Assembly: GCF_029017505.1 (NCBI RefSeq)
Contig: NZ_JAQGEI010000038.1
Location: 1-54,667, forward strand
DNA from: Sedimenticola hydrogenitrophicus
GTDB taxonomy: Bacteria > Pseudomonadota > Gammaproteobacteria > Chromatiales > Chromatiaceae
DNA length: 54,667 bases
Reading direction: 5' to 3'
Shown: positions 10,641-35,531 of the stretch, piece by piece
Numbering within the stretch: the first letter of the stretch is position 1
Layout of the letters: every line of letters begins with the position of its first letter
The notes under the pieces: model-generated
What the model was told of the DNA's origin: nothing
Databases searched by the model: none
Seen by the model: the letters and a program-made list of their open reading frames with translations, nothing else
Program-made: the position numbers and the translations under genes

Positions 10641-10893
10641 CTCGCCTATCCTCCTGTTCTGTTCGTCTTATCGGGAGAGGTTCAATACCCTGCCGGCTTA
10701 ACCCTTGGGTTGACTGCTATACCCGCAGGCGGCCTGCATGCAACGATGCGGGATAACTCGCCTGGGACAGGAGCGTTGTGAGAGGGGTGCAGCATCCCGT
10801 CCGCGGGTTATTCCTTCCATCACTTAAGGAGATTAGCAGAGAATCAGCGCCGCATGCCGGCAAACGGTGGGTCCCGGCCGTGACTGGTGTCGC

Positions 10894-12171: not shown

Positions 12172-12179
12172 GGGATGCC

Positions 12180-14447: not shown

Positions 14448-14498
14448 GGGCCCTCGGTATTCAGTTCAGAGTCGGCCGGCTATCTTACCCGCACGGTC

Positions 14499-16194: not shown

Positions 16195-16536
16195 CTACTT
16201 AGCTGAGTTCAAAACCTTGGTAAGCAGTGATCCCAAAGCGGGCAGTTCACCGGTGACAGTGCTCCAGACCACGTCTTTGTCGATATCGAAGTAACCATGG
16301 ATCAGGCGGTTTCTCATGGCTGTGGCGGCTCGCCAGGGGATTTCAGGATATCGAGCGCGTGTTTCAGGGGATACCCTATTTGCCGCCTCGCCAAGTATCT
16401 CGATGGCGCGAATCACTGCAAATAGCAGCATGCGGTTTTGGTCGAGATCGGGGCGTTCCCGGTTCTTCATAAACCCGATTGCGGTTTCGGTTGCTTCCAG
16501 CATGTGCTGTAGCCGAACACGATCTTCAGGCGGCAT
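16195..16536 (-). CDS. hepT: HepT-like HEPN toxin (DUF86)
   Basis: 113-residue HEPN-domain ribonuclease toxin. The catalytic R-x4-H-x-Y motif is visible as R75 to H80 and Y82 (RNRLIHGY). The E-x-LGEA helix common in the family sits at about 46-51. Its start overlaps the end of the antitoxin gene by 11 bases, the usual MntA-HepT arrangement. In studied pairs the antitoxin AMPylates the toxin at the motif Tyr; here that is by analogy. Confidence 0.88.
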   Translation of the reverse strand: MPPEDRVRLQHMLEATETAIGFMKNRERPDLDQNRMLLFAVIRAIEILGEAANRVSPETRARYPEIPWRAATAMRNRLIHGYFDIDKDVVWSTVTGELPALGSLLTKVLNSAK

Positions 16537-16828
16537 ATTGAACTTCTGCGGTGGACAAGATGCTCTCGCGGAACAGGTGACTCAGTTCGTTTGGAGTGCG
16601 GAGATCCACTTTTATTCCTTTCATCAGCTCTGACAGTTCCGCTTCCATCTCCGCAAGAGCGAGTAGGCCAGGTGTGTTGCCCGGCTCAAACTCGACCAGC
16701 AGATCTATATCGCTTTGCGGTGTCGCGGTCCCCTTGAGTGTGGAGCCGAACAGGGAGAGGCGCTGAATGCCGTGGGTGCGGCAAAAGTCGGCCAGTTCGG
16801 TCTGTTTGATGGGAAGCCGGGTTGGCAT
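16526..16828 (-). CDS. mntA: MntA-like minimal nucleotidyltransferase antitoxin
   Basis: 100 residues from ATG 16828; the frame is open upstream, but the sequence there reads as non-coding. The nucleotidyltransferase signature is G28-S29, then D40 and D42 (GS-x10-D-x-D), with a third acidic position in the KVDLRTP strand. It precedes and overlaps hepT. The pair sits between an IS remnant and the aromatic island, a typical place for a mobile toxin-antitoxin module. Confidence 0.87.
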   Translation of the reverse strand: MPTRLPIKQTELADFCRTHGIQRLSLFGSTLKGTATPQSDIDLLVEFEPGNTPGLLALAEMEAELSELMKGIKVDLRTPNELSHLFRESILSTAEVQYAA

Positions 16829-16930
16829 GGCGCTATGCTCGTTTCTGTTTAAATCACCTATAGCAGGGATTGTAGAAAGAAACAGGATTGAAATCCATTC
16901 GGCTGGAGAGTGCAGACGAAATGGAAGGGA

Positions 16931-16966
16931 GGTGTCGGAGTCAGCTTGCGGGCTGACTCCGACACC
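16931..16966. terminator. 15-bp perfect hairpin downstream of the CoA-ligase-like gene
   Basis: GGTGTCGGAGTCAGC at 16931-16945 pairs perfectly with 16952-16966 around a six-base loop. It lies 12 bases past the stop of the minus-strand gene ending at 16978 and may end the long pad-side transcription unit. It lacks a U-run. Its GTCGGAGTCA core recurs in the repeat at 19159-19330, so it may instead be a repeat unit. Confidence 0.55.
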
Positions 16967-16977
16967 TGGGTTACCCA

Positions 16978-19158: not shown

Positions 19159-19330
19159 GGGGTCGGAGTCAAGCCACCAACGAGTGGTGGGAAATACGTC
19201 CTGGCCGCTTTATGGTGGATGCGCCTACCGGCTTATCCACCCTACGTCCTGCATTCGAGGCTGATCGTAGTCAAGCCGCCAACGAGTGGCGGGATATATG
19301 CCCTGTCCTGCGCGGCTTGACTCCGACCCC
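19159..19330. mobile_element. MITE-like repeat with 17-bp perfect inverted ends
   Basis: GGGGTCGGAGTCAAGCC at 19159-19175 is perfectly inverted at 19314-19330. Inside lie a CAAGCCACCAACGAGTGG-type unit used twice (about 19170 and 19271) and a 70-bp unit at 19201-19270 that is repeated outside at 19361-19430. It fills the gap between the thiolase and the CoA-ligase-like gene. Confidence 0.7.
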
Positions 19331-19360
19331 TGGTTGTTTATCCTCGCCTGCAGGAGCGGC

Positions 19361-19430
19361 CTGGCCGCTTTATGGTGGATGCGCCTACCGGCTTATCCAC
19401 CCTACATCCTGCATTCGAGGCTGATGGTAG
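19361..19430. repeat. Second copy of a 70-bp direct repeat
   Basis: Matches 19201-19270 with only two visible differences (G/A in the CCTAC-GTCC stretch and C/G near the end). It contains a GGTGGATGCGC...TTATCCACC palindrome. Related GGTGGATAAGC units follow at about 19432-19460 and at 50252-50283. Confidence 0.75.
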
Positions 19431-21105: not shown

Positions 21106-21999
21106 TCAGCCGCCCTGCAGATAGGGCGCGCACTGCTTGATCAGCACTTCGAGACTCTGCTCGATAGTCTGGCCCGAGGTCAGGATCTCGAAATTGGCCA
21201 GGCGGTAATCCGCTTCACGTTCGTCCAGTATCAGTTTCAGGTCATCCATCGCCTGCTGGTTGCCGGCCATGGGACGCATGTCACCCTGCTCGATGACACG
21301 GTTCATGTGATCCTCCGGCAAGGCGCGCACCCAGACGGTGTAGAAGTTCTCGCGCAGCACCCGGAAGGTCTCCGCCTCGGAGATCAGACTGCCGCCGGTC
21401 TCCAGCACCACGTGCCGGTAGTCGGTGATGGTCTGCTGCAGCGCCTGCAGCTCCAGCCGGCGGTAGTTGCCCTGGCCGGTGAGGGAGATCAGCTCGCCCA
21501 TGTCCATCCCCGCCAGTTGCGCGATCACGTTCTGCATGCGAATGAACGGCACCTGAAAATGCTTCGCCAGCCGCTCACCGAGGGTGCTCTTGCCACCGCC
21601 GCGCAGCCCGATCAGGGCGATGCCACGATAGGCCCCCTGGCCCGGCGAAAAGGCGTTGCGCAACAGCTGGAACGCCTTCTCCTGTGCCTCGGGCGTGAAG
21701 GTTTCGATCAATTCGCCCAGCGGCGGGTACTTGATGCAGCTCTCCTCCTGCTCCGGCAGCAGCGAGCCGATCCGCACCCCGAGGGCCTTGGCGATCCGCG
21801 ACAACAGGGCCAGTGAGACGTTGGCGGTGCCACGCTCCAGCTGGGCCAGGTAACGCTCTGAGACGTCTGAATGAAAGGCGAGGTTTTTGCGCGTCAGACC
21901 ACGCCGTGAGCGTACCGAGCGTACCCGCGCCCCGACCACTTCGGTCAGCTCCTCAATGCTTACCTCTTCCCCCGCGGGGGAGTTGACGATCTCAGTCAT
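21106..21999 (-). CDS. bzdR: BzdR/BoxR-type benzoyl-CoA-responsive regulator
   Basis: 297 residues with the BzdR architecture: an XRE-type helix-turn-helix at about 22-80 (SERYLAQLERGTANVSL), a short linker, then a shikimate-kinase-like domain at about 120-290 with the Walker A loop GLRGGGKST (131-139). In Azoarcus, BzdR represses the anaerobic benzoate operon and benzoyl-CoA relieves this; BoxR acts on the aerobic box genes. Here it lies downstream of the AOR gene, and no box genes are in the window, so control of the pad, kor and bcr operons is the simplest reading. No TGCA-N6-TGCA boxes were found at these promoters. Confidence 0.9.
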   Translation of the reverse strand: MTEIVNSPAGEEVSIEELTEVVGARVRSVRSRRGLTRKNLAFHSDVSERYLAQLERGTANVSLALLSRIAKALGVRIGSLLPEQEESCIKYPPLGELIETFTPEAQEKAFQLLRNAFSPGQGAYRGIALIGLRGGGKSTLGERLAKHFQVPFIRMQNVIAQLAGMDMGELISLTGQGNYRRLELQALQQTITDYRHVVLETGGSLISEAETFRVLRENFYTVWVRALPEDHMNRVIEQGDMRPMAGNQQAMDDLKLILDEREADYRLANFEILTSGQTIEQSLEVLIKQCAPYLQGG

Positions 22000-22090
22000 G
22001 CGTCACGTTCCTATTGGTCTCCTCTCCTGCCTGATATTAACATGATACTGATATTTGTACCTTTTCCACACGCGCTTTCTCTCTCTCTTA
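22000..22090 (-). promoter_or_regulatory. Upstream region of bzdR with direct repeat, candidate autoregulatory site
   Basis: CTGATATT occurs twice in direct repeat, 17 bases apart (22031-22038 and 22048-22055), in an AT-rich patch ahead of bzdR. A GAGGAG-type ribosome site follows near the start. No clear -35 was seen. A pyrimidine tract (CTCTCTCTC, near 22080) borders the next repeat. Confidence 0.4.
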
Positions 22091-22249
22091 GGGCCCGCGC
22101 AAGAATAATTCCGTAGTACCGAGGGCGTTCCTGGGCCACGCTGGCAAGGCACGCTTTGCAGGCAATGGCTGTTCCCTTGGCAAAAAGCGTAACGCTGCCA
22201 GCGGGGTCCAGGGGCGACCGAATACAGGAACTTATTCTTGCGCGGGTCC
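22091..22249. mobile_element. 159-bp palindromic MITE-like element next to aor
   Basis: Terminal inverted repeats of 18 bp with one mismatch: GGGCCCGCGCAAGAATAA at 22091-22108 and its inverse at 22232-22249. The interior is an imperfect palindrome too (TTCC.GTA, CCTGG, CGCTGGCA and ACGCTTT blocks recur inverted), so the transcript could fold into one long hairpin. It ends four bases before the aor stop codon and separates aor from bzdR. Confidence 0.75.
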
Positions 22250-22253
22250 TTAG

Positions 22254-24578
22254 CTACCCTCCCGCCAACATCGGCACCAGGCTCACCTGGTCGCCATTGT
22301 GCAGGGCCAGCCCCTGTTCCGAGGCGACCACCAGTTGATCGTTAATGGAAATGCCGAACGAGCTGTCCTGCAGCGCCTCGGCCGCCTGCGGCAGGCTGCT
22401 GATCAGGCGTTGTCTCAGCTCCTGGATATTCCTCACCGGCCGGTTGATGACCAGGCTGTGGCGTTTCACCCCGGGCAGCTCCGGCAGTTGCACCTTCAGG
22501 CTGTAGCCGGTCAGCACCTGGGAGAGCCGCTCCCACCAGTCGCTGCTGGGCAGGCCGTCCGGTTCAAACCCGGAGATCTCGTAGAAGCGCAATTTCAGCT
22601 CCGCGAACGCCTGCGGATCGATCTTCTCGCCGCTGAACGGGCCGGCGCTGTTGGGCTCCTCGAACCAGCGCCGGGGCAGGGTGTCGTCGACGTCGCCGAG
22701 GCCGCGGATGGCATTGATCATGCGCTCCACGGCGATCACGTTGCGGCCGCTGTTGAGCAGGTCGTCGCTGCTCATGTCGATCCCGGTCAGCAGCTTGAGC
22801 TGCTCGGCAAACTCCTCGGTCCCGGTGAGTGACGGGGAGTTGAACAGCTTGGTGGTGAAGCGGCACATGCCCACCGAGTCGCCGACCGCAAAGGTGTCCT
22901 CGCAGCGACGTACCGCGTACTCCTTGCCGCCGTACTGATTGGGTTCGGCCGACACCTGGCCGCCATACAGGGCGGTCTTGAACTCGGCGTCGTCGTTGAT
23001 GCGGGCATTGATCTCCAGGGTCACCCGGTTGCGCAGGTGGTCCATGCCGCGGGTGGCCACCGCCAGGCCCAGGGCGAACGCCTTGAGGATGCGGCTGTCG
23101 TGGGGGTCTGACTGGAACAGCCCCTTTACCGTCATGCGGTAGTCCAGTGCCTCCTTCGGATATTTGCCGGTGGCCACCGCCTGGCTGGAGTCGGCCACCA
23201 CGTCACCGAAGCCTTCGCGTTTGGCCAGCATGAACAGCAGTTTCTCCACCGCCTCATAGTTGCCCCAGCTCAGCTCCAGGCCGCCGGTGGTCTTCTGGTC
23301 GATAATGCCGCGCTGATACAGTTCCATGGCCCAGCCGATGGCGCCGCCGGTGCCGGCGGAGTCGAGCCCCAGGTCGTTGAGGATGTTGTTCAGGCGCAGT
23401 ACCTGCTCCGGTTCTTTTATGCCGATGTTGGGGCCGAACTTGCCGACGGTGACATACTCCGGGCCGTCGCCCTTGTCGTAGCGGTCGAACACGTCATTGC
23501 CCTTGATGCCCCGATAGCCGGCGTGATGTTCATGCTGTACCTCGGCCTGGGCGGTGTCGTAGCTGGCATTGCCGGTAACACCTTTCAATGCATTGGCGCC
23601 GAAGCCGCCGGTGGCCCCGGGGGTCATGTCGTTGAGTGGCCGGCACTTCACCGGGCACTTGTAGCAGCCATCCATGCCGGTGCGGTAGACATCGAAGTTG
23701 TCGGCGTCCAGATCCTCGACCCAGGTGTTCTCCTGGTTGTTCTTGGTGCCGATGGCGCCGAGGATACGGCTCGGTTTGTACAGGAACGGGGTGCCGACGG
23801 TCTTCAGGGCATTGTGGATCACGCTGGTGCCGATCACCTTGTTGCTGATCTCCTTGGCGCCCAGCTTGAACTCCCGGGAGGAGACGATCTTGCCCGGCGC
23901 GCCGTCGATCATGATCGCCTTCAGTCCCAGCGAGCCCATCTTGGCACCGGCGCCACCGCGTGCCCAGATCGCCTTGATGCCGCCCATGATGCCGGAGCTG
24001 AGCACCTGGTTTTCTCCGGCACTGGTGATGCGCGCCAGTGCCATGTCCTTGCGTTCGGTACGTTCGAAATCGCGCTGAATGGCCTCGGTGATATCCAGGT
24101 TATCCATTCCCAGGTAGGGGGTGGCGTCCAGAAACTGTATCTCTTCGAAAGAGATCTTCAGCAGCGTCCATTGGGGGTTGCGTCCATACAGCACCAGGTG
24201 GTCATAACCGTGGTGACGCATGAAGGCGGGGAAGTAGTCGCCGGCATTGCTGTCGAGGATGGCGTCGCTCTCCGGGGAGAGGCTGGTGACGTTGCCGCGA
24301 GTGGCGGAGGCCATGTAGCCGGTAAAGACCCCGCTGCCGAAAATAAGCGGGACTTCGGGATCGAGTGGTTCCACGTTGTCGCCGGAGAGCAGGTTGTAGA
24401 GCAGGAACATGTTGCCGCCGCGACCGCTGAGGAAGGTGGTCAGCACCTCCTTCGGCAGGTAGGCCTTGCGCTGGCTGCGGCGCTCCAGATCCACAAACAG
24501 GACGGCGCCCTGGGTGGGATACTGGGGGGCATCCGGCATGCGTTCCAGCAGGGCGTCGATACGGTCTCTGATGCTCAT
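22254..24578 (-). CDS. aor: Tungsten aldehyde:ferredoxin oxidoreductase fused to a C-terminal MoaD-like domain
   Basis: Oxidises aldehydes to carboxylic acids at a tungsten-bis-pterin site using low-potential electrons; phenylacetaldehyde is the likely substrate here. ATG 24578 was chosen for its AGGA ribosome site; the frame runs open to 24692. Of 774 residues, about 1-690 form the AOR core: a VLFVDLERR start, a CYKCPVKC cysteine run for the [4Fe-4S] cluster, a later Cys in VGMCRFTT, and a DSAGTGGAIGWAMEL helix. Residues about 692-774 resemble MoaD/ThiS sulfur carriers (FGISINDQLV, NGDQVSLVPML) and end exactly in Gly-Gly at the stop. AOR operons often carry moaD as a separate gene. No AorA- or AorC-like partner gene lies beside it. 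Confidence 0.9.
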   Translation of the reverse strand: MSIRDRIDALLERMPDAPQYPTQGAVLFVDLERRSQRKAYLPKEVLTTFLSGRGGNMFLLYNLLSGDNVEPLDPEVPLIFGSGVFTGYMASATRGNVTSLSPESDAILDSNAGDYFPAFMRHHGYDHLVLYGRNPQWTLLKISFEEIQFLDATPYLGMDNLDITEAIQRDFERTERKDMALARITSAGENQVLSSGIMGGIKAIWARGGAGAKMGSLGLKAIMIDGAPGKIVSSREFKLGAKEISNKVIGTSVIHNALKTVGTPFLYKPSRILGAIGTKNNQENTWVEDLDADNFDVYRTGMDGCYKCPVKCRPLNDMTPGATGGFGANALKGVTGNASYDTAQAEVQHEHHAGYRGIKGNDVFDRYDKGDGPEYVTVGKFGPNIGIKEPEQVLRLNNILNDLGLDSAGTGGAIGWAMELYQRGIIDQKTTGGLELSWGNYEAVEKLLFMLAKREGFGDVVADSSQAVATGKYPKEALDYRMTVKGLFQSDPHDSRILKAFALGLAVATRGMDHLRNRVTLEINARINDDAEFKTALYGGQVSAEPNQYGGKEYAVRRCEDTFAVGDSVGMCRFTTKLFNSPSLTGTEEFAEQLKLLTGIDMSSDDLLNSGRNVIAVERMINAIRGLGDVDDTLPRRWFEEPNSAGPFSGEKIDPQAFAELKLRFYEISGFEPDGLPSSDWWERLSQVLTGYSLKVQLPELPGVKRHSLVINRPVRNIQELRQRLISSLPQAAEALQDSSFGISINDQLVVASEQGLALHNGDQVSLVPMLAGG

Positions 24579-24791
24579 AGTGGTTCCTTTTGTCCGGCAG
24601 GCGGGTGTCAGCTCCGACACCGCCTGCTCCGATATGATCTTTCCGGATGGATTCGCTGCGCTTGTCCACCCTACCTGTTTTTTGTCCTGCACCGGCCGCC
24701 GCTGTCGTCGCAGGCGGGTCGGGCGTAGCCAGACATCCCCTGTCTGTCACGCCCATTCCCTGTGTTGCTCCCTTTGCCGGAAGCCCTGTAA

Positions 24792-24998
24792 TTACTTCTG
24801 TTCGAACAGATTGCAGCCGAATTCGCCGCGGGTCTGGATCTCGGCATATTCGTCATCGCTGCGCACCAGCGCGCGTAACGGGTTGGCGCGCATCTGATCA
24901 AACAGCTCGCAGAGGCCGAAGCCATCCTGTTCGCGTTCATTGCGCAAGACGACATTCTGCTCGAAGCGCCAGTGACTGCAGTCGTTGCAAAAGCCCAC
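24792..24998 (-). CDS. 68-residue four-cysteine protein between paaK and aor
   Basis: GTG start at 24998 with GGAG six bases upstream and 10 bases after the paaK stop. Cysteines at 4, 7, 30 and 62 (FCNDCSHW, LC, FGC) suggest a zinc or iron-sulfur site. It is acidic in the middle (NEREQDG). I do not recognise a named family. The position between phenylacetate-CoA ligase and AOR suggests an accessory or small electron carrier for one of them. The gap to aor (24579-24791) holds a partial GGTGGATAAGC-type repeat. Confidence 0.65.
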   Translation of the reverse strand: MGFCNDCSHWRFEQNVVLRNEREQDGFGLCELFDQMRANPLRALVRSDDEYAEIQTRGEFGCNLFEQK

Positions 24999-25008
24999 GC
25001 TATGCTCC

Positions 25009-26319
25009 TCACTTCTTGCGCAGATCGCGCACCCGCACCGCCTTGCCCTGGGAACGCGGCACCGCGCCGGTCTCCAGCACATTGACCGTGCAGGTGACGC
25101 CGATCAACGATTTGATGTGGTGTTTCACCTCGGCGCCGAGCGCCTGTTTGTCGCCGCCGAAATCGGGCTCTGCCTCGATGTCCACGGTCAGGGTGTCGAG
25201 TATGCCCTCGCGCCGGATCACCAGCTGGTAGTGGGGGGCGACGCCGTTGATGCCCACCAGCACCGACTCGATCTGCGACGGATAGACGTTGACGCCGCGG
25301 ATGATCATCATGTCGTCGTTGCGCCCGGTGACCCGCAGGATGCGCACGTGGGAGCGGCCGCAGGCGCACGGCTCATCGGTCAGCTGGGTGATGTCGTGGG
25401 TGCGGTAGCGGATGATCGGCAGCGCCTCCTTGGTCAGGGTGGTGATCACCAGTTCGCCCGCCTCGCCATAGGGCAGCGGCTGCAGGGTGTCGGGATCGAT
25501 GATCTCGAACAGGAAGTGATCCTCCCAGCCGTGCAGGCCATTCTGCTCGGTGCATTCACAGGCCACGCCCGGCCCCATGATCTCGGACAGGCCGTAGATA
25601 TCCATCGCCTTGATGCCGAGCTGTTTCTCCAGCTCGCCGCGGATCTCGTCGCTCCAGGGTTCGGCACCGAACACGCCGACGCGTAGCGGGCCGGCCGCCA
25701 GGTCCACCCCTTCATTTCTTGCTACCTCGGCGATGTTGAGGGCGTAGGAGGGGGTGGAGAGCAGCACGTGGGAGCCGAAGTCGTTCATCACCGCGATCTG
25801 CTTCTCGGTGTTGCCGCCGGACATGGGGGTGACGGTGCACTTCAGCCGCTCGGCGCCATAGTGGGCACCCAGCCCGCCGGTGAACAGGCCGTAGCCGTAG
25901 GCGTTGTGCACGATGTCGCCGGGGCGGGCGCCGGCGCAGGAGAGGCTGCGCGCCATCAGGTCGGCCCAGTTGTTGATGTCGCCCTCGGTGTAGCCGACCA
26001 CGGTCGGCTTGCCGGTGGTGCCGGAGGAGGCGTGCAGTCGCGAGACCTGCTCCCGGGGCACGGCGAACATGTTGAACGGGTAGGCGTCGCGCAGATCGTT
26101 CTTCACCGTGAAGGGAAACTTGGCCAGATCCTCCAGGCGCTCCAGGTTGTGCGGTTTTACCCCCTGGGCATCGAATGCCGCCCGGTAGTGCGGCACGTTG
26201 TCATAGGCGTGTTGCAGGCGCGTCTTCAGACGTTGCAACTGCAGTTGCAAAAGTTGCCCGCGTGGCATGCACTCGGCTTCGGCATCATAATAGTAATTCT
26301 CGGCACCAGTATTCGACAT
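25009..26319 (-). CDS. paaK: Phenylacetate--CoA ligase
   Basis: AMP-forming ligase activating phenylacetate to phenylacetyl-CoA (padJ in denitrifier pad clusters). Start at ATG 26319 with GAGGAG nine bases before it; an upstream in-frame ATG at 26355 lacks this. The 436 residues carry the ATP-binding SSGTTGKPT loop, a YGLSEIMGPG motif and the C-terminal GRNDDMMIIRGVNVYP hinge of PaaK enzymes. It supplies the substrate of PadBCD, encoded upstream on the same strand. Confidence 0.95.
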   Translation of the reverse strand: MSNTGAENYYYDAEAECMPRGQLLQLQLQRLKTRLQHAYDNVPHYRAAFDAQGVKPHNLERLEDLAKFPFTVKNDLRDAYPFNMFAVPREQVSRLHASSGTTGKPTVVGYTEGDINNWADLMARSLSCAGARPGDIVHNAYGYGLFTGGLGAHYGAERLKCTVTPMSGGNTEKQIAVMNDFGSHVLLSTPSYALNIAEVARNEGVDLAAGPLRVGVFGAEPWSDEIRGELEKQLGIKAMDIYGLSEIMGPGVACECTEQNGLHGWEDHFLFEIIDPDTLQPLPYGEAGELVITTLTKEALPIIRYRTHDITQLTDEPCACGRSHVRILRVTGRNDDMMIIRGVNVYPSQIESVLVGINGVAPHYQLVIRREGILDTLTVDIEAEPDFGGDKQALGAEVKHHIKSLIGVTCTVNVLETGAVPRSQGKAVRVRDLRKK

Positions 26320-26395
26320 GGTGTCACACTCCTCTATATTTGTTTTCATCATCAAACGCGCAAAAGGGCTCTGGCTTTAATGGCTTTCACGATGC

Positions 26396-26480
26396 TCGTC
26401 ATTCCGGCGCAGGCCGGAATCCAGGAATGCTGCCACCATTCAGCAGTCTGGATCCCGGCCTGCGCCGGGATGACGGTGCT
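26396..26480. repeat. Pair of REP-like palindromes in opposite orientation
   Basis: ATTCCGGC-gcag-GCCGGAAT (26401-26420) and ATCCCGGC-ctgc-GCCGGGAT (26452-26471) lie head to head between padI and paaK. The pair could stabilise the padI 3' end or reduce read-through into paaK. It is the same repeat family as at 73-92. Confidence 0.7.
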
Positions 26481-26514
26481 TCTTGGCTTAACTAAGTACC
26501 ATTCGGCTCCGCCC

Positions 26515-27843
26515 CTATTGACCCGCATAGCGTTTCAGGGTCCTTACCCGCTCATTGACCTGCTGCTGGATGCAAGCCAGCTGCTCCGCGTTGACGTGGC
26601 GGTACTTGCCACTCAGGTTCAGGTAGGCCTCTACCGGCAGGGGGTTATCGATGGGGTGGGTGAAGTGCAGGTCACCGCCCCGTTCATACTCCCACAAGGG
26701 AGCAAAGTTGGTCTCCACGCCCTTGCGGCACACCTCGATAGTCTGCGACGAGGGGAAGCGCCAACCGGTGGGGCAGGGCGAGTAGATGTGCAGATAGGCA
26801 AAGCCGCGCTCGGAGGCGGCCAGCGCCTTGTCCAGTTTCTCGTAGTAGTCCTCGACAAATGCAGTGGAGGCGGTGGCCACATACTCGCAGTTGTGGTTCA
26901 TCATGATCATGGCCAGATTCTTCTGGCTGGTACGCTTGCCTTTCATTTCGCTGCCGACCGGCGTGGTGGTGGTCCAGGAGCCGTAGGAAGTGCTGCCGGA
27001 CGCCTGCATGCCGGTGTTCATGTAGCCTTCGTTGTCGACACAGATAAACAGGATCTGGTCATTGCGTTCCGCCGCGCCGGAGAGCGACTGGAAGCCGACA
27101 TCACCGGCCCCACCGTCGCCGGCCAACGCCATGGCGGTGACGTTGCGGCCCATGCGGTTGTACTGTTTCTTCAGTCCGGCCAGCATCGAGGCGGTGTTGG
27201 TCAGCAGCGGGTGGAACACCGGCACCTTGGTGCCGGTGGTGCCGTTGAAACCGACCGAGCCCATGCCGGGGATACAGCCGGGCGGGGTGGCCAGCACCGT
27301 GTCCGGTCCCACCTTGCGCAGCGAGTGACGCATGATCATCTCCGAGTTGCAGCCCTGGCAGGCGGAGAGCCCGGGCACGAACAGATCCTCGCGTTCGTGT
27401 TGCTCGTTGAAGATGCCGGCCGAGGTGATGTAACTGAGGGCCCCGCTCGGGCACGCCTTGACACAGGCCGGGTCGCCGTCGCACAGGTCGCACTTGGCGA
27501 CATGCTTCAGTGTCGCATTGTAGGTGATGCCGCCATAGCTGCAGCCGACGGTACAGAGCAGGCAGTCGACGCAGAGGCTTTTCTCCCAGTCGATCAGGCC
27601 GGTATCCGGGTTTTTGGTCAGCGCGGTGGAAGGACAGCTCTTGACGCACTCCGGGTCGCCGCACTGGCGGCACAGCGCCAGTTCCGGAGGGTTACCGTTG
27701 AAGCCGGCGACGATCTTGATGCGCGAGTACAGCGGGTCGTCGCTGCCCGACTTGACCTGGGCGCAGGCGGTGATGCAGGCATCACAGTCATTGCACAGCT
27801 CGCAGCGTGACGGATCGAAGGCGATGGTGTTGTAGGCGGTCAT
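26515..27843 (-). CDS. padI: Phenylglyoxylate dehydrogenase, beta subunit
   Basis: 442 residues. An N-terminal region with several ferredoxin-type cysteine clusters (CELCNDCDACITAC, CGDPECVKSCP, CVDCLLCTVGC, CDLCDGDPACVKACP; about 10-155) is followed by the thiamine-diphosphate domain of 2-oxoacid:acceptor oxidoreductases (CQGCNSE, then GDGGAGDVG). With PadEFGH it oxidatively decarboxylates phenylglyoxylate to benzoyl-CoA with NAD+. Last gene of the tightly packed pad operon; REP hairpins follow. Confidence 0.93.
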   Translation of the reverse strand: MTAYNTIAFDPSRCELCNDCDACITACAQVKSGSDDPLYSRIKIVAGFNGNPPELALCRQCGDPECVKSCPSTALTKNPDTGLIDWEKSLCVDCLLCTVGCSYGGITYNATLKHVAKCDLCDGDPACVKACPSGALSYITSAGIFNEQHEREDLFVPGLSACQGCNSEMIMRHSLRKVGPDTVLATPPGCIPGMGSVGFNGTTGTKVPVFHPLLTNTASMLAGLKKQYNRMGRNVTAMALAGDGGAGDVGFQSLSGAAERNDQILFICVDNEGYMNTGMQASGSTSYGSWTTTTPVGSEMKGKRTSQKNLAMIMMNHNCEYVATASTAFVEDYYEKLDKALAASERGFAYLHIYSPCPTGWRFPSSQTIEVCRKGVETNFAPLWEYERGGDLHFTHPIDNPLPVEAYLNLSGKYRHVNAEQLACIQQQVNERVRTLKRYAGQ

Positions 27844-27858
27844 TAATCTGTTCTCCCG

Positions 27859-29112
27859 TTATCGCCAGGTGCTGGACATGAGGGCGCGGCCGGTCTCCAG
27901 CGGCCGGGCGATAAAGGCGTCTTTTACCGGGGTGAGATCGACCTTGCGCAGGATCAGCTGCCACATGATGCCGGCATCCATCTCCTGGTTGATACTGGAA
28001 ATACCCTGCAGCCGGTTCTCCTTGAGCAGGATCTTCAGATAGCGGCCGTGGTCCTCATCCACCCGGGTCAGCTCTTCCAGTGATGCGTCGGCCAGACTCT
28101 GGCCGACCGAGATCGCCTGCTGGCCGAAGAAGGTATAGGTATTGATCGGCACGCCGCCGATATAGGGTTTCAGGGCGTGGTCTTCGGTCATGTCCATGGC
28201 GGCCACGGCGCCCTGGGTGACCGCATCCGGCAGGATGCCCATCATCACCTTCTCCTCGCCGTAGAAATCGGCGGCCTGGGCGACGTCGCCGGCGGCCCAG
28301 ATATGCGGCGCGTCGGTGCGCATCCGGCGGTCCACCAGGATGCCCTGGTCCACCTGCACCGAGGTGCCTTTGAGGTAATCCAGTTGCGGTTTCACGCCGG
28401 TGGCGACCAGCAAGAGATCAGCCTCCAGGCTGTCGCCGTTCTCCAGGGTGATCCGGCAGCCGTCGCCCAACGGCTCCACCCGCACCACCCGGCTGCCCAT
28501 CAGCATACGAATGCCGTTGGCGTTGAAGGCGTGCTCGATCACCGCCGCGGCGCGCGCATCGAAATAGCCCGGCAGTACCTGGTCGCACATCTCCACGATG
28601 GTGACATCCAGTCCGGCATGACGCAGGTTCTCGGCGCCGTGCATACCGATCAGGCCGGCGCCAAGCACCACGGCGCGCTTCACCTTGCCGGCGTGGTCGC
28701 GCAGGTCGATGGCGTGCTGCATGGTGCGCAGCACATGGTACGGGGTCTCGCTGAGTCCGGGGATCGGCGGGATGATCGGATCGGCCCCGGTGGCCAGCAG
28801 CAGTTTTGCATACTGCCAGCGGTCGCCCGACTTGAGCGTGACCTGTTTGCCGGTCTCGTCGATCGACACCAGTTCGTTGTCGCTGATCAGGGTGACATTG
28901 TGCTGTAGGAAATAGTCCGCCGGACGCAGCACCACCCGCTCCGGAGCGCTCTGCCCCGACACCACGTAGGGCAGGATGGTGGGCGAGTAGGGCGCATGGG
29001 CATCGCGGGTCACCAGGGTGATGGGGGAGGTCTCATCCACCAGGCGGATGCGGTGCACCGCTTCCAGGCCGGCATGGCTGGCGCCGGCGACGAGATAGTG
29101 GGTCGTGTTCAT
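27859..29112 (-). CDS. padH: Phenylglyoxylate dehydrogenase, epsilon subunit (FAD/NAD oxidoreductase)
   Basis: 417 residues from ATG 29112 (GAGGAG upstream; an earlier ATG at 29130 is less likely). An N-terminal FAD-binding GASHAGLEA loop (about 10-18), the NAD-binding VVLGAGLIGMHGAE loop at about 145-158 and the IWAAGDVAQ motif place it in the pyridine-nucleotide disulfide oxidoreductase family. It passes electrons from the iron-sulfur core of the complex to NAD+. Confidence 0.93.
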   Translation of the reverse strand: MNTTHYLVAGASHAGLEAVHRIRLVDETSPITLVTRDAHAPYSPTILPYVVSGQSAPERVVLRPADYFLQHNVTLISDNELVSIDETGKQVTLKSGDRWQYAKLLLATGADPIIPPIPGLSETPYHVLRTMQHAIDLRDHAGKVKRAVVLGAGLIGMHGAENLRHAGLDVTIVEMCDQVLPGYFDARAAAVIEHAFNANGIRMLMGSRVVRVEPLGDGCRITLENGDSLEADLLLVATGVKPQLDYLKGTSVQVDQGILVDRRMRTDAPHIWAAGDVAQAADFYGEEKVMMGILPDAVTQGAVAAMDMTEDHALKPYIGGVPINTYTFFGQQAISVGQSLADASLEELTRVDEDHGRYLKILLKENRLQGISSINQEMDAGIMWQLILRKVDLTPVKDAFIARPLETGRALMSSTWR

Positions 29113-29122
29113 CGGGCGCTCC

Positions 29123-30361
29123 TCAATCATGCTCGTTCAGCCATACCGGACTGTCGAATTCGTCACCGGCCAGCAGCTGCGCGGTGCGCTCGATGGCGCG
29201 GGCAAAGTGACCCTCGGTGAGATCGGCGCCGGCCAGGCCGCCGATGAAGGAGCCGGCGGCAATCGGCTGGCCGGCGCGGTAGAGACAGCTCAACACCTCC
29301 TGGTAGAGGGGGCCGCAGTCCCAGCCGTAGTGCACCGAGCGATCCACCACGCCGACCGCCCGGACCTTTTTCAGCGCCCGGGTCATGGCGGCCACGGGGA
29401 ACGGGCGGAAGGTCTTGATCTTGATCAGACCGACCTTCTGGCCCCGCTCGCGAGCGCTGTCCACCGCATCCTTGGCGGCGCCGGTCATGGAACCGATGGT
29501 GACCAGGGCGTAGTCGGCGTCGTCCAGCCGGTACTCCTCCACCAGCGGCGCGTAGTCGCGGCCGAAGATTTCGGCCCAGTCGGCATGTGCCTGCTCGATC
29601 ACGCCGAGGGCGTTTTGCATGCCCTGGCACAGCCCCTTGCGGTAGGCGACGAACTTGGCCGGTCCGGGACCGCCGGCGCCGCCGGTGAGCGGATCCACCG
29701 CCATCGGCCGCAGCGGGTCGAGGGCCACGTGCCAGTTGATGTTCTTCTCTCCCAGGTAGTCGTCCACTGCCGACTGCTCCGGCACCTCCACCTGGGTGAC
29801 GCCGTAGGAGAGGTAGTTGCCGTCGTGGCAGATGTTCACCGGCAGCATCACGTCGTGGTGCTCGGCGATGCGGTAGGCCATCACGGTGGTGTCCAGCACC
29901 TCCTGCACGGTCTCGCAATAGATCTGGATCCAGCCGGTCTCCTTCATGGTCATGGCGTCCTGCTGGCCGCCCCAGACGCACTGCGGGGTGATGCCGTCGC
30001 GGGTCACCAGCGAGGCGACGATGGGCAGGCGCATGCCGGGCGTGCGCCAGTAGGGTTCGAACATGAAGGCGAGGCCGGGACCGCAGGTGGCGGTGTAGGT
30101 GCGGCCGCCCGCCAGGGCGGCGCCGTGCAGCGCGGAGAGCACGCTGTGCTCGCCCTCCACGTTCATCAGTTCCGCCTCGATCTTGCCGTCGGCGATGAAC
30201 TGGGAGACGTACTCCACCAGCGAGGACTGGGGGGTGATCGGATAGACCGCCACCACATCGGGACGGGCCAGGGCCACCGCCCAGGCGGCCGCCTCGTTGC
30301 CGTCGCAGACGATGGACTGGGCGCAGCCGGGGTGTTTCAGCTTCAGCGCGGGCGTGGCCAT
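29123..30361 (-). CDS. padG: Phenylglyoxylate dehydrogenase, alpha subunit
   Basis: 412 residues, homologous to the alpha chain of pyruvate:ferredoxin oxidoreductases: a DGNEAAAWAV start, YPITPQSSLVEYVSQ (pyrophosphate domain) and MNVEGEHSVLSALHGAALAGGRTYTATCGPGL. Start at ATG 30361, which shares one base with the padF stop (TAATG), so translation is coupled. Together with PadI it forms the thiamine-dependent catalytic core. Confidence 0.94.
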   Translation of the reverse strand: MATPALKLKHPGCAQSIVCDGNEAAAWAVALARPDVVAVYPITPQSSLVEYVSQFIADGKIEAELMNVEGEHSVLSALHGAALAGGRTYTATCGPGLAFMFEPYWRTPGMRLPIVASLVTRDGITPQCVWGGQQDAMTMKETGWIQIYCETVQEVLDTTVMAYRIAEHHDVMLPVNICHDGNYLSYGVTQVEVPEQSAVDDYLGEKNINWHVALDPLRPMAVDPLTGGAGGPGPAKFVAYRKGLCQGMQNALGVIEQAHADWAEIFGRDYAPLVEEYRLDDADYALVTIGSMTGAAKDAVDSARERGQKVGLIKIKTFRPFPVAAMTRALKKVRAVGVVDRSVHYGWDCGPLYQEVLSCLYRAGQPIAAGSFIGGLAGADLTEGHFARAIERTAQLLAGDEFDSPVWLNEHD

Positions 30362-30654
30362 TATTTGACCTCCTCGATCATCTGGATGGCGTTGTGCGGG
30401 CACTCGACGGCACAGATGCCGCAGCCCTTGCAGGTGTCGTAGTTGATGTCGAACCAGGCCGGCTTCTCAACGATGCACTGCACCGGGCAGAAGATCCAGC
30501 AGACGGCGCACTTGACGCACTTGGCGCGGTCCACCACCGGCCGCTCGGCGCGCCAGTCGCCCGGCAGCATGCCGTTTTCGATGATGGCGACCGGGCAGAG
30601 GTCGTCCGGCACCTGGCTCATGTCCGGCCTTGGATGGGCTCTCATCTTGCTCAT
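30361..30654 (-). CDS. padF: Phenylglyoxylate dehydrogenase, delta subunit (2[4Fe-4S] ferredoxin)
   Basis: 97 residues with two [4Fe-4S] motifs, C-x2-C-x2-C-x3-C in CVKCAVCWIFC...C and CKGCGICAVEC, in the second half. It is the electron-transfer delta chain typical of 2-oxoacid:acceptor oxidoreductases. It overlaps both neighbours by a few bases. Confidence 0.93.
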   Translation of the reverse strand: MSKMRAHPRPDMSQVPDDLCPVAIIENGMLPGDWRAERPVVDRAKCVKCAVCWIFCPVQCIVEKPAWFDINYDTCKGCGICAVECPHNAIQMIEEVK

Positions 30655-31250
30655 ACCCAGGTATCTCCCTGCCGCTGTTTGACGATCGATTCGTTGAAGC
30701 CGCGCTCCACCGCGATCAGGTTCTGCTCCAGGCCGGCGTCACGGAAGTTGGCCGACTCCAGGCCGGCGCGCAACCCGTCCAGGGTGACGATGCCGGTGGC
30801 CTTGGCGAAGGCGCCGAGCATGATGGTGTTGGTGATGGGACGCCGGAACACCTCCATGCCGATGGCGATGGCATCGCACAGCACCACCCGGGTGACGGCC
30901 GCCGGGCAGCTGAGGGACTCGGCCGAGTTGCGCGTGGCCTGGATCAGGGTGCTGTCGGGCTGTACCCCGGCAAAGATATCCACCGCCTTGGGGATGCTCG
31001 GATCGATACAGATGATGTAATCGGGGGCGTAGATATTGGTCACCGCGCGGATCGGCCGGTTGGAATAGCGCATGAAGGCGGCCACCGGTGCGCCGCGCCG
31101 TTCGAAGCCGAACGAGGGGATGGCGGTGACGTGTTGTCCGCTCAACACCAGGGCCTTGGCGAGGATCTTGGAGGCGAGCACCGCGCCCTGGCCACCGCGC
31201 CCGTGCAGACGCACCTCGTGGGTGATTTTCTGTTCTACAGCCGTGGTCAT
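30651..31250 (-). CDS. padE: Phenylglyoxylate dehydrogenase, gamma subunit
   Basis: 199 residues from ATG 31250; the longer open frame upstream overlaps padD. It carries the gamma-domain signature HGRGGQGAVLASKILAKAL at about 15-33 and a SFGFERRGAPV segment. In the alpha-gamma fused KorA of this window, the same domain sits at the N-terminus. Overlaps padF by four bases and padD by four. Confidence 0.92.
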   Translation of the reverse strand: MTTAVEQKITHEVRLHGRGGQGAVLASKILAKALVLSGQHVTAIPSFGFERRGAPVAAFMRYSNRPIRAVTNIYAPDYIICIDPSIPKAVDIFAGVQPDSTLIQATRNSAESLSCPAAVTRVVLCDAIAIGMEVFRRPITNTIMLGAFAKATGIVTLDGLRAGLESANFRDAGLEQNLIAVERGFNESIVKQRQGDTWV

Positions 31251-32146
31251 TGTGGCAATCTCCAGCCGGGTTTCAACCCGGGGCCGGGCTTGCCGCCGCC
31301 GCGCGCCGGGGTGTGTGAAATGGCATAGCCCTGGGAGTAGGCGGCGTGCAGGATGATCTGATACTTGCAGAACCAGCCGCACAGCACCATGAAGAATCCG
31401 GCCGCCGCCGCCAGCGGCAGCTGATAGGCGGGGTAACTCTTGCCCAGGAACAGCAACACGATCGGCGCGGCGACGCCGAGCAGGGCGATCACGCTATGCG
31501 CCCTGTCCAGTACCTGCAGGGTCGCCTCCGGGGCGTTGTTGGCCAATGAATAGCGGTAATTGATCCAGGCCGCCCCGCGCAGGAACACCAGGGCCAGGGC
31601 CAGGATCCAGCCGTAACCGCTGAACAGGGCCGCCACGTTGCCCTGCACCAGGCCGGCGAAGATCAGCACGATACCCATACCCTCGGTCAGTCCGGTGCTG
31701 ACGATGAGCGGGTTGATGGCGTCGGTACGCCAGGCCGGGATCCCCTTGGCCATGTGCAGGATACGCGCCTGGGCGTAGAGAAACAGGGCCGCCGCCACGG
31801 CGGCCATGATCAGCAAGGGGATCGACAGGGCGGTGGATTCGCTGAGGAAGGCGAGCACGCCGAGTGGCAGCAGCACGGTGGCCACCAGGCCCTCGCGGGT
31901 CATCCAGGAGCGGCGCGGGTTGCGGAACACGTTCATGGAGCGCAGCGGCCGGCCGATCTCCAGCCACACCAGGCCCAGGCCGGTGGCGACCAGGGCGCTG
32001 GCCAGCAGGGCGTAGCCACTGGCGTGCAGTCCGATGAGCGTCAGCAGGGCGGCCATGATCATCAGGCCGGAGCCGCTGCCGCCGCAGATGAAGTTACCGG
32101 CGGCGCGCCAGTCCCAGCGTTTCTGTAGGGTTGGAGCCAGCATCAT
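31247..32146 (-). CDS. padD: Phenylacetyl-CoA:acceptor oxidoreductase, membrane anchor
   Basis: 299 residues with eight predicted helices, of the DmsC/NrfD-type quinol-interacting anchor group. Start at one of two adjacent ATGs (32146 or 32143) overlapping the padC stop. It ties the molybdenum enzyme PadB-PadC to the inner membrane and probably passes electrons to the quinone pool. Confidence 0.9.
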   Translation of the reverse strand: MMLAPTLQKRWDWRAAGNFICGGSGSGLMIMAALLTLIGLHASGYALLASALVATGLGLVWLEIGRPLRSMNVFRNPRRSWMTREGLVATVLLPLGVLAFLSESTALSIPLLIMAAVAAALFLYAQARILHMAKGIPAWRTDAINPLIVSTGLTEGMGIVLIFAGLVQGNVAALFSGYGWILALALVFLRGAAWINYRYSLANNAPEATLQVLDRAHSVIALLGVAAPIVLLFLGKSYPAYQLPLAAAAGFFMVLCGWFCKYQIILHAAYSQGYAISHTPARGGGKPGPGLKPGWRLPQ

Positions 32147-32796
32147 TTACGCTCCCACAGGTAATAGAAGCCGGAGCCGGTCTCCAGCTCCGCATGCATC
32201 TGGAAGTATTCATGGGTCCGCAGCAGTTTGGATACGTTGCTGTCGGGATCTTCGATATCGCCAAAGGTCAGGGCGTCGGCGATACAGCTGTTGGCGCAGG
32301 CCGGGGTGGCGTCCGGGTCGATGCCCGGGATCAGGCCGTTGGCGGTGCCGTAGTCGATGCGCTCGACACAGAAGGTGCACTTCTGGGCCACCGCGCGACG
32401 CTCGCTGTGCGGTACCTTCTGCTCATGCTTCATCTGGCCGAACGCCTTGCCGTAGGCCTTGTTGGGGATATCCACCCGATCCCGTGCCTGGTAGGGGCAG
32501 GCCTGGATACAGTAGGCGCAGCCGATGCAGCGGTCGTAGTCGATGGCGACGATGCCGTCGGGCCGTTTGTAGGTGGCCTGGGTCGGGCAGGCGTCGGCGC
32601 AGGGCGCATCCAGGCAGTGGTTGCAGCCCACCGGGATGAAGGCGCGGCGCACATTGGGGTAGGTGCCCACCTCGAAATCCAGCACCTTGCGCCACTGCAC
32701 CCCGGGCGCGGTGGCATTGGTCTGCTTGCAGGCCGCGGTGCAGGTCTGGCAACCGACGCAGCGGTTGATGTCGGCGACCATCACATAACGGGTCAT
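32143..32796 (-). CDS. padC: Phenylacetyl-CoA:acceptor oxidoreductase, iron-sulfur subunit
   Basis: 217 residues with four ferredoxin-type clusters as in DmsB/NarH-like subunits: CVGCQTCTAAC, CNHCLDAPCADACP, CIGCAYCIQACP and CTFCVERI with a final Cys-containing CANSC segment. It wires PadB to PadD. Overlaps padB by four bases and padD by four. Confidence 0.93.
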   Translation of the reverse strand: MTRYVMVADINRCVGCQTCTAACKQTNATAPGVQWRKVLDFEVGTYPNVRRAFIPVGCNHCLDAPCADACPTQATYKRPDGIVAIDYDRCIGCAYCIQACPYQARDRVDIPNKAYGKAFGQMKHEQKVPHSERRAVAQKCTFCVERIDYGTANGLIPGIDPDATPACANSCIADALTFGDIEDPDSNVSKLLRTHEYFQMHAELETGSGFYYLWERK

Positions 32797-35531
32797 TTCC
32801 TGGTCTCTCCAATCTTCTTGACCTTGACCCTGGCCAGGTCCGCGCCGGAGCCGCTGGAGTCGGTCAGATCGAGCAGCATCGGCACCAGGGCGTTCATGCT
32901 GGGTACGTCGAACTCCTTGGCGAACGGGGTGGCCCAGTGGTCGAACTGGCCCATCAGCATCAGGGTATCGGGACGGATGCCCTCACGGGTGACCAGGATG
33001 CCGCGGGTGGCGCTGAGCGGGGAGGTGATCTCCACCCGGTCGCCGTCCTTGAGCCCCAGCTTGTGGGCCTGGCCGGTGTTCATCACCAGGCCGCCGTGGG
33101 TGCCGATGTTCTTCGACACCTCGCGGATCAACTGGATCGAGACGTTGCCGCCCCAGGCGTACTGCATGCTGCGCGAGGTGACCAGCCAGAACGGGTAGTC
33201 GCTGATATTGATGCCGAAGTTGCGCTCCAGCGCGCCCTCCCAGATCGCCTGGAAGTCCATCATCTCGGGCAGCGCCGCATACTCCTCCAGCTGTTCGTCC
33301 CACCAGCTGATGCCGCGCTCGTGCAGGCGCCGGCCGAGCTGGACGCCGACCCGCTTCAGGGTCTCCTGGTAGGGCAGTTCGTAACGCACCCCCTCGTCCT
33401 CCATCTTGGCGGTCAGATACCACTTGATGCGCGGGAAGCCGGTGAGGCGGTAGCCCTTCTCCTTGTAGTAGTCGAGGCCCTGGCTCTCCTTGCCGCCGGT
33501 GAGCTCGGCGCTGGCCGCCCTGCAGTTGGCCTCCCAGATGGTCTCCACGTCATGGGCCTGGTCCACGTCCAGGCTGAAGTCGTAATAGTCGGTCTTCAGG
33601 GCGACGCCGGCGGCGCCGCGGTTGAGCGCCTTGTTGTACTTCTCCAGCACGCCGCAGCGTTTCGCCAGTTCGGTGCTGATCCAGGTGAAGTCGCGGGTGT
33701 CGCCCAGCGGTTCGGTGACCGGCTGGCGCAGGGCGAAACCCTGGTGGTCCCAGAACTGTTCGATGAATTTGGTACCGCCGATGCGGATCAGCTGCAGCCC
33801 TTCCAGGTCGGTGCGGTCCGGCAGCAGGATGTCGGCCATGTGGTTGGTCTCGTCGCGGGTATAGGCGAAACAGACCGTGAACGGAAACGTGGCGATGGTC
33901 CGGGTGATCTGCTCGGTGTCCCAGAAGGAGACCGCCGGATTGGTGCGATAGACGAACCAGAGCGCCGGCTTGGTCGCCTGCGGCCAGTGCTCCGGCCCCT
34001 TCTCCTGCTGCATCCAGGCCAGATGGGTGGGGCCCAGGGCCTGGCTCCAGGCGGAGTTGCCCACCAGCGGCACCAGGGTGCGGTTGGCGTTGCGCACATC
34101 CGGGGTGGCCAGCCAGTTCTCCTTGTCGGTGGGATTCATCGGGTAGGCGAGGAAACCGTCCTCGGAGAGCTTGACGCTGTCGTTGCGGTCGGAGGCGGGC
34201 CGGTTGATGCGCACCGTGGTGCCGATGGTGCCGCCCGGCACCTCCAGGGCGCCCACCAGCACCGCCAGCATGGTGCGGGCCCAGCAGCACTGGTAGCCGC
34301 CCCAGCCGTTGTTGACCGTCTTGCCCAGGGTGACGGCGACCGGGCGCAGCGGCATGGTGCGGCCGTCGACCTCGATGGTCTCGCCGACGCGGGCGTGGTC
34401 CAGGTACTCCAGGGCGATGCGGCGGATGATCTTGTGGTCCACGTCGCAGACCCGTCCCGCCCACAGCGGGGTAAACGGCTTCATGTATTCGACCAGTTTC
34501 TCGAACGCGGTGGTGACCTTGATATCGCGGTGCTCCCAGCGGTCGTCATCGGCGCCCAGCTCGATGCCGCTGAGGATGTACTGCCCCTCCAGCGCCGGTT
34601 CGGTGCCGGGGGTGTCGAAGGGCACCGCCTGCGTGCTTTTCAGGTCGTAGATCAGCGGCTTTTGCGTCTCCGGGTCGCGCAGGTAGTAGCCGTTGGGCGC
34701 CACCAGGTACGGTGAGCCGGTACGGTCGCGCAGGAACACCTTGTCCAGCCGCTCGCGCTGCTCGTGCAGCAGCACGTGGATCAGGGCGAACATAAAGGCC
34801 GGGTCGGTCTTCGGCTTGATCGGTACCCACTCGGCGGAGGCGGCGCCGGTCTGGGAGAGGTGGGGCTCTACCTGAATCCGCTTCACCCCCCGGGCGCGGG
34901 CATCGGCGTGGCGTTTGACCCCGCAGACGCCGCCGGAGGCCTCGATGTTCATGCCGAAGGAGATGATGTAGTCGCACTTCGGGGTGTCCGGGGCGACGAT
35001 GAAGGCGCGGTGCCAGAGTTCGCCGTAGAGATGCTCCGAGTGGTAGCACTTGACCCCCTGGCCGCTGCCGAAACCCATGTCGATCGGGGTGAGGGTGCTG
35101 AGGAACGCGGGGAAGGTGCCCATGTAGTAGGTGGGGGTGCCGCCGCCACCGAAGCTGGCGGCGATCTTGGGATAGCCCGCCTCGTCGGTCTTGCCCTCGG
35201 CCTGGATCTGCTTCACCTTGTCGGCGATGGTGTCCAGCGCCTCGTCCCAGCTGATGGGGACAAACTTCGGGTCCTGGTCGCGCCCCTTGTTCGGATTGGT
35301 CCGCTTCATCGGGGTGAGGATGCGATGGGGATTGTAGACCTTCTGAATCAGCCCGAACGCCTTGACGCACACCTTGCCGCCGGCCGGGGTCACGGCCGCC
35401 GCGTCGAAGTTGGGTTGCACCTCGGTGGCGATACCGTCTTCCACCCGCACGTTGAGCAGGTCCGGCCCCGCCACGCACTGGTAGCAGTAGGTTGGTATCT
35501 TGGTCTTGCCGGTGGGTGATTCAGTGGTCAT
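32793..35531 (-). CDS. padB: Phenylacetyl-CoA:acceptor oxidoreductase, molybdopterin catalytic subunit
   Basis: 912 residues of the DMSO-reductase family, converting phenylacetyl-CoA to phenylglyoxylate with release of CoA. There is no twin-arginine signal, so the complex faces the cytoplasm. The likely Mo ligand is Cys162 in GVKCYHSEHLYG. The N-terminal cluster has C16-x2-C19 and C55, but the third Cys of the usual C-x2-C-x3-C is replaced (GPD at 22-24). The C-terminal domain shows the GHxTGL-like NTGQAHKLGLKDGD pterin-binding stretch. Second gene of the pad operon, 12 bases after the thioesterase gene. Confidence 0.92.
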   Translation of the reverse strand: MTTESPTGKTKIPTYCYQCVAGPDLLNVRVEDGIATEVQPNFDAAAVTPAGGKVCVKAFGLIQKVYNPHRILTPMKRTNPNKGRDQDPKFVPISWDEALDTIADKVKQIQAEGKTDEAGYPKIAASFGGGGTPTYYMGTFPAFLSTLTPIDMGFGSGQGVKCYHSEHLYGELWHRAFIVAPDTPKCDYIISFGMNIEASGGVCGVKRHADARARGVKRIQVEPHLSQTGAASAEWVPIKPKTDPAFMFALIHVLLHEQRERLDKVFLRDRTGSPYLVAPNGYYLRDPETQKPLIYDLKSTQAVPFDTPGTEPALEGQYILSGIELGADDDRWEHRDIKVTTAFEKLVEYMKPFTPLWAGRVCDVDHKIIRRIALEYLDHARVGETIEVDGRTMPLRPVAVTLGKTVNNGWGGYQCCWARTMLAVLVGALEVPGGTIGTTVRINRPASDRNDSVKLSEDGFLAYPMNPTDKENWLATPDVRNANRTLVPLVGNSAWSQALGPTHLAWMQQEKGPEHWPQATKPALWFVYRTNPAVSFWDTEQITRTIATFPFTVCFAYTRDETNHMADILLPDRTDLEGLQLIRIGGTKFIEQFWDHQGFALRQPVTEPLGDTRDFTWISTELAKRCGVLEKYNKALNRGAAGVALKTDYYDFSLDVDQAHDVETIWEANCRAASAELTGGKESQGLDYYKEKGYRLTGFPRIKWYLTAKMEDEGVRYELPYQETLKRVGVQLGRRLHERGISWWDEQLEEYAALPEMMDFQAIWEGALERNFGINISDYPFWLVTSRSMQYAWGGNVSIQLIREVSKNIGTHGGLVMNTGQAHKLGLKDGDRVEITSPLSATRGILVTREGIRPDTLMLMGQFDHWATPFAKEFDVPSMNALVPMLLDLTDSSGSGADLARVKVKKIGETRK

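Follow-up and report, generated by a model that had tools for sequence, protein, structure and literature searches.

The fusion of an aldehyde oxidoreductase (AOR) to MoaD has itself been known since 2006, when it was noted for Azoarcus with MoaD placed C-terminal to the aldehyde ferredoxin oxidoreductase, as in the protein described here (Iyer, Burroughs and Aravind, 2006, Genome Biol 7:R60, PMC1779556). In the portions of that paper considered, the account is confined to a single sentence, an item in a figure and a comment in row 3 of Table 1, and these do not extend to the Gly-Gly (GG) tail of the present protein, its changed active site, its insert or its aromatic gene context. Within the literature searched, part of it as excerpts, the fusion is described only there, and its breadth, the conservation of GG and the loss of Glu313 were not found in print in that same literature. 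Full-length orthologues about 65-66% identical to the present protein occur in eight Aromatoleum loci and in one of Azoarcus sp. Aa7. Aromatoleum evansii, in which recombinant tungsten AOR has been produced as an established practice (PMC9295118), has an orthologue of its own. AorABC(DE) of Aromatoleum aromaticum EbN1 (PMC6365974, PMC9295118; structure 8c0z) has the AOR fold in common with it but, on the evidence of parts of these papers, is a three-subunit enzyme with dedicated, separate MoaD-like AorD and AorE in its operon, whereas the fusion is a single chain without aorA or aorC of its own. The homodimeric AOR of P. furiosus (1aor) shares the fold (TM 0.87 on target), the four cluster cysteines, Thr243 and His448, but has neither the MoaD domain nor the insert, and its Glu313, Tyr427 and Tyr452 are replaced in the fusion. 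A fold match to the class II benzoyl-CoA reductase BamB (4z3w) was also obtained with Foldseek. MoaD of molybdopterin synthase (1fm0, 1nvi) shares the beta-grasp fold and C-terminal GG of the fusion tail but is a free 81-residue protein, whereas the tail is tethered to a client enzyme. A second AOR-like protein of Aromatoleum is mentioned in part of a 2025 review (PMC12096430, Fig. 2 legend); likened to the fusion by description rather than by sequence, it is at a guess a member of the same family, and the words MoaD, fused and fusion are absent from the review's main text.

The window analyzed here is the whole stretch of 54,667 nucleotides of contig NZ_JAQGEI010000038.1 from Sedimenticola hydrogenitrophicus. 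An ORF at 22254..24578 on its minus strand, to which the coordinates of all protein features below refer, encodes an AOR/WOR-family enzyme with a MoaD domain (774 amino acids, ATG at 24578, stop codon at 22254-22256). The start methionine is common to six aligned orthologues and, as read from the sequence, a likely ribosome-binding site, AAAGGAA (24584..24590, minus strand), ends 5 nt 5' of the ATG. Around the gene (21900-25400) there were no promoter-like sites (shuffle mean 0.6) and two terminator-like sites, which is not above the shuffle mean of 2.7, and Rfam gave no match to a Moco/Tuco riboswitch at gathering level within the window. Membership of the tungstoenzyme family is indicated by an AFOR_N domain (residues 25-226, 23901..24506; Pfam PF02730, E 2.5e-43), by AFOR_C domains 2 and 3 (residues 242-685, 22524..23855; Pfam PF01314, E 1.5e-88) and by Foldseek matches to 1aor, 8c0z and 9mqx. 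The AlphaFold model of the whole chain, built on a 55-sequence alignment, has a mean pLDDT of 84 and a pTM of 0.90.

A preliminary description of this DNA had proposed that the AOR is fused to its own MoaD-like sulfur carrier with a free C-terminal Gly-Gly, and profiles, AlphaFold and Foldseek concur on just such an arrangement: residues 691-774 (22257..22508) are a MoaD/ThiS domain, beta-grasp by prediction, and end in Gly-Gly (22257..22262). The Pfam ThiS match at residues 713-774 is weak in the whole protein (E 0.0015, 19.5 bits versus a cut-off of 22.5) and the NCBIfam MoaD models score far under their cut-offs on the fusion; the isolated 89-residue C-terminus clears the Pfam ThiS cut-off (E 4.4e-5, 24.4 bits), and the ThiS family (PF02597) is matched by 55 of 55 fusion C-termini at E 0.01 or better. 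When a profile of these 55 C-termini was compared with the PDB, the top matches were MoaD (molybdopterin converting factor subunit 1; 1nvi and 1fm0, E 1.2e-4), and the alignment extends through the final GG. Modelled alone, the domain has a mean pLDDT of 79.6 and retrieves MoaD 1nvi first in Foldseek (E 8e-5, TM 0.70-0.76), while the whole chain retrieves AOR structures and, separately, 1nvi (TM 0.77 on target). In the whole-chain model the last four residues have the lowest confidence within the domain (pLDDT 51), which predicts a loose tail. Thus the profile and structure comparisons that had been recommended both came out in favor of the fusion, and the protein combines a ThiS-family sequence, a predicted beta-grasp fold and a free C-terminal Gly-Gly, the features of a sulfur carrier. 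The objection anticipated at the outset, that the C-terminus might be an ordinary AOR domain, fails because 11 of 11 ordinary AORs end near residue 687, making the MoaD domain an addition; these ends, together with the MoaD profile and fold matches, exclude both an ordinary C-terminus and a chance resemblance. Below MoaD, Foldseek also ranks SAMP1, Urm1 and ubiquitin-like proteins, a resemblance that would suit a GG tail linking the enzyme to other proteins in conjugation or regulation, as in archaeal SAMPs; however, MoaD structures lead by sequence as well as by fold, and no E1-, E2- or JAB-type protein was found among the scanned neighbours (two overlapping sets of 10), so we give conjugation the lowest probability of any role weighed for the tail. 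An internal start yielding a free MoaD was considered and rejected, a conserved ATG being absent among 74 proteins: at any one position 75-104 codons from the end of the fusion an ATG occurs in at most 4 of the 74 (GTG and TTG were inspected by eye in 13 proteins).

The same fusion was sought elsewhere, as had also been advised, and was found in at least 78 loci, many of them metagenome assemblies, from Sedimenticola, Motiliproteus, Amphritea, Aromatoleum, Azoarcus, Geothermobacter, Geobacteraceae, Desulfuromonadales and other lineages. Two family-specific peptides served as seeds for the scan, which took one genome per species; since 80 of the 84 confirmed stretches were kept from such seeding, the 78 loci form a biased sample. 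Judged by sequence, the fusion is a widespread and conserved family. A further S. hydrogenitrophicus locus carries an orthologue 98% identical to that of the window, and the eight other genomes of the genus hold five full-length fusions and two fragments at contig ends; in the remaining one, which is near-complete, no fusion was found. Across the class (369 genomes, the window's own among them) there were nine matches to a full-length profile at E 1e-150, eight of which reach residue 774 while the ninth stops at a contig end at residue 619, and no unfused close relative was seen among the nine. The C-terminus is visible in 74 proteins from 73 loci (74 different sequences, some closely related), 73 of them ending in GG and one in GA, which argues that the tail is not a product of chance. 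Two loci contain broken fusion frames. A Rhodocyclales genome carries two fusion genes in one locus (3007-5328 and 10001-12322), both GG-ended.

Variation within the family bears on whether the domain does anything at all. Mean column identity is 56% in the C-terminal set versus 73% in the full-length set (55 sequences each), and the fused MoaD might accordingly be read as a passive leftover, retained for folding or solubility and of no further function, since it is more variable than the rest of the protein. Its dN/dS, however, was 0.21 and 0.27 in two of four pairs (dN was zero in the third and the ratio not computable in the fourth), beside 0.04-0.09 for the AOR part in all four, indicating that the MoaD domain is under purifying selection by these estimates, and this and the near-invariant GG make a functionless remnant very unlikely.

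The AOR half differs from its relatives in the surroundings of the active site. According to parts of the 2025 review, four second-shell residues are found in most AORs, Thr243, Glu313, Tyr427 and His448, and Glu313 is the proton acceptor for aldehyde oxidation in proposed mechanisms (PMC12096430). The corresponding positions, numbered as in P. furiosus AOR via the 1aor alignment, were read from an alignment of 55 fusions with 11 ordinary AORs and then from every one of the 74 orthologues whose end is complete. All 11 ordinary AORs are from genomes of the same class, and three fusion-carrying genomes contributed four of them; they form a narrow control to which the review adds a wider one. The motif C305-x2-C308-x3-C312 (23643..23666), equivalent to C288/C291/C295 of P. 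furiosus AOR, and C572 (22863..22865), equivalent to C494, are cysteine in 74/74 and presumably supply the first three and the fourth ligands, respectively, of the [4Fe-4S] cluster. Thr243 is retained in 73/74, as is His448 (H514, 23037..23039). At the Glu313 position, by contrast, where all 11 ordinary AORs have Glu, the window protein has V376 (23451..23453) and the orthologues have Val (48), Ile (16), Thr (8) or Ala (2), never Glu. The Tyr427 position, Tyr in 11/11 ordinary AORs, is occupied by H493 (23100..23102), with His in 73 and Leu in one of the 74, and that of Tyr452 by Arg in 73 of 74 versus Tyr in 11/11. Just ahead of the Glu313 region lies a conserved, family-specific insert of about 50 residues (318-369, 23472..23627), seen in the columns of the 55 fusions aligned with the 11 AORs and largely missing from the latter. 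Because a Glu-Tyr motif adjoining the Glu313 position (Glu in 71/74, Tyr in 68/74) anchors it in the alignment, the loss of Glu313 appears firm. The GA-tailed exception, from Holophagaceae (positions 8981-11935 of its own locus), is 42% identical to the window protein with a frame otherwise open; it also lacks the Thr243 and His448 residues and is the one with Leu at Tyr427, and is possibly an inactive or repurposed member.

Placement in the AOR/WOR family is sound, but to name the protein simply an aldehyde oxidoreductase is unsafe because the proposed catalytic Glu and Tyr are both missing. With Glu313 and Tyr427 replaced, it departs from the residue set given in parts of the review for sensu stricto aldehyde-oxidising AORs (PMC12096430), and these losses argue against standard aldehyde oxidation. 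We infer that the AOR half represents a distinct subfamily of W-bis-molybdopterin/[4Fe-4S] oxidoreductases, tungsten included. Its changed second shell offers a natural test of the role proposed for Glu313, as far as this is set out in the parts of the review considered (PMC12096430). Since the loss of Glu313 (74/74) and of Tyr427 (74/74, His in 73) accompanies the tail in every aligned fusion, the thiocarboxylated tail might be thought to work within the active site of its own enzyme, where it could bind tungsten, donate sulfide, stand in for the missing acid-base group or carry an aromatic acyl group; the uncertainty of the domain's last four residues in the whole-chain model and the aromatic-acid CoA ligase-like genes among the neighbours would fit such a role, yet co-occurrence within one clade may be mere shared descent, and we regard the idea as remote. 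More remote by a little is the specific version in which the charged GG tail enters the tungsten pocket as ligand, acid-base group or covalent aromatic acyl carrier. Were it true, the reaction cycle of this tungstoenzyme would include a thiocarboxylate bound to protein, the carrier taking part in catalysis as well as in assembly.

The fused domain is not alone in its cell. Five ThiS-family matches were obtained in the window's own genome, namely a MoaD beside MoaE (contig C11), ThiS (C4), a separate MoaD-like gene in an AOR operon (C19), a domain lacking GG (C8) and the fusion, along with one MoaE and four ThiF-family proteins; a ThiF/MoeB-family protein is encoded on the same contig as the fusion. 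In Thermovirga lienii, too, a MoaD-like gene directly follows an AOR gene. The search covered this genome and 11 of 15 further ones with a whole or partial fusion, the four incomplete ones being omitted, and in 12/12 there was another AOR-family protein and there were further ThiS-family matches. The tail is therefore not needed for molybdopterin synthesis, and the fused carrier is an additional, not the sole, carrier. MoaE is single in 11 of the 12, and a genome that is 93% complete (G120) gave no MoaE match. The tail-profile scores were examined for a sign that the tail is more closely related to the AOR-linked AorD than to a canonical MoaD, and none was seen: the C8 domain scored 22.2 bits, MoaD 21.3 (from a sequence lacking its first residue or residues), ThiS 17.6, AorD 16.6, the T. 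lienii MoaD 10.2 and MoaE, as a negative, 1.4.

That the genome encodes a canonical MoaD as well as one MoaE lends some credit to the view that the fused domain is a docking handle, recruiting MoaE or cofactor-delivery proteins by contact while the canonical MoaD provides the sulfur in trans. The C8 domain, which ends another protein (locus L004, 1471-2163, minus strand) and forms a natural contrast to the fusion, adds to this, showing that there can be other reasons for retaining such MoaD-like domains. A free GG, however, is needless for contact alone and has yet been kept in 73/74, and we consider docking by itself unlikely. A working tethered carrier is favoured because of the conserved GG, the separate MoaD genes beside other AORs and the activity gained with aorDE: according to parts of the published account, recombinant AOR had an activity of 4.5 U/mg, and of 16 U/mg once the MoaD-like aorDE genes were added (PMC9295118). 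The same source gives, for aorABCDE without added tungstate, a tungsten content of 0.39 versus 1.06 in aorABC (PMC9295118), so that, as far as that account goes, the MoaD-like genes do not simply increase the cofactor content.

We therefore hold, with moderate confidence, that the fusion carries a working MoaD, tethered to an enzyme of aromatic aldehyde/acid conversion with changed chemistry, charged by MoeB and used with the single MoaE. MoeB would adenylate the C-terminal glycine of the fused domain, and a sulfur donor would then convert the adenylated tail to a thiocarboxylate. The charged tail would dock into the cell's single MoaE, its probable partner, and pass its sulfur to the pterin precursor, after which the domain would be recharged. 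Tethering would hold molybdopterin synthase, and hence fresh cofactor, beside the apo-enzyme. The likeliest reading is a thiocarboxylated tail that provides dithiolene sulfur for the very enzyme carrying it. Since each active site takes two molybdopterins, and hence four dithiolene sulfurs, a lone tethered carrier must cycle at least four times per enzyme; these four transfers per site, and the canonical MoaD alongside, count against a strictly private supply. Supply would be in cis; the tail might also serve in trans. In our judgement, molybdopterin delivery to tungsten enzymes and sulfur carriers dedicated to a client are both poorly known, and a natural one-chain combination of enzyme and carrier makes both questions addressable through one tail mutation.

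As for the reaction itself, the oxidoreductase would serve anaerobic aromatic-acid catabolism, most likely by interconverting an aromatic aldehyde and its acid, with acid-base chemistry that would be altered because Glu313 and Tyr427 are replaced. Downstream of the fusion gene lies a gene for a helix-turn-helix plus shikimate-kinase regulator of anaerobic benzoate catabolism (21106..21999, minus strand; NF006015, 334.7 bits against a cut-off of 204). Upstream is a cluster (25009..35531, minus strand) which we take to be a pad cluster, beginning with a phenylacetate-CoA ligase-like gene, presumably of padJ type (TIGR02155, 606 bits, slightly under the cut-off of 646), followed by phenylglyoxylate and phenylacetyl-CoA oxidoreductase-type genes; beyond these, on the upstream side and still in the window, are what we assume to be ring-degradation genes of Kor, Had, Oah, Dch and Bcr type. 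Across the 78 loci, at least one counted aromatic-catabolism gene was present in 51 and none in 27, with the phenylacetate-CoA ligase family counted 25 times, indolepyruvate oxidoreductase 15, the aromatic CoA ligase family 13 and the regulator 11, plus others; these counts come from flanks of varying length, with identity thresholds chosen by the analyst and no random-locus control, and the profiled ligase matches all lie under curated cut-offs.

The initial statement that no AorA- or AorC-like partners are adjacent needs qualification. An AorC-like PadH (29% identity) and an AorA-like N-terminus of PadI (39%) are encoded two to three genes upstream, but as part of the phenylglyoxylate oxidoreductase genes; at tblastn E 1e-10, AorA/AorC matches occur in 5 of the 78 loci, all of them pad-type and all on PadI and PadH. 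A dedicated aorA or aorC, as in the three-subunit AorABC, was found neither in the window nor in the 78 loci, the flanks of which differ in length.

Several other elements of the window were recorded. A 68-amino-acid ORF with a CxxC motif (24792-24998, minus strand) lies between padJ and the fusion; it has no Pfam match, and counterparts 78-91% identical to it were found in six other Sedimenticola-type loci. A FlK-type thioesterase is encoded between the Kor-type and pad genes (35544-36011, minus strand). A HepT-like ribonuclease and an adjacent nucleotidyltransferase (16195-16981, minus strand) are likely a toxin-antitoxin pair, near which lies a transposase (14373-15806). Direct repeats of 74-221 nt and 93-99% identity were found at 36201-36681, 36372-36592/49941-50161, 51586-51959 and 19197-19430, the members of one pair being 13.6 kb apart.
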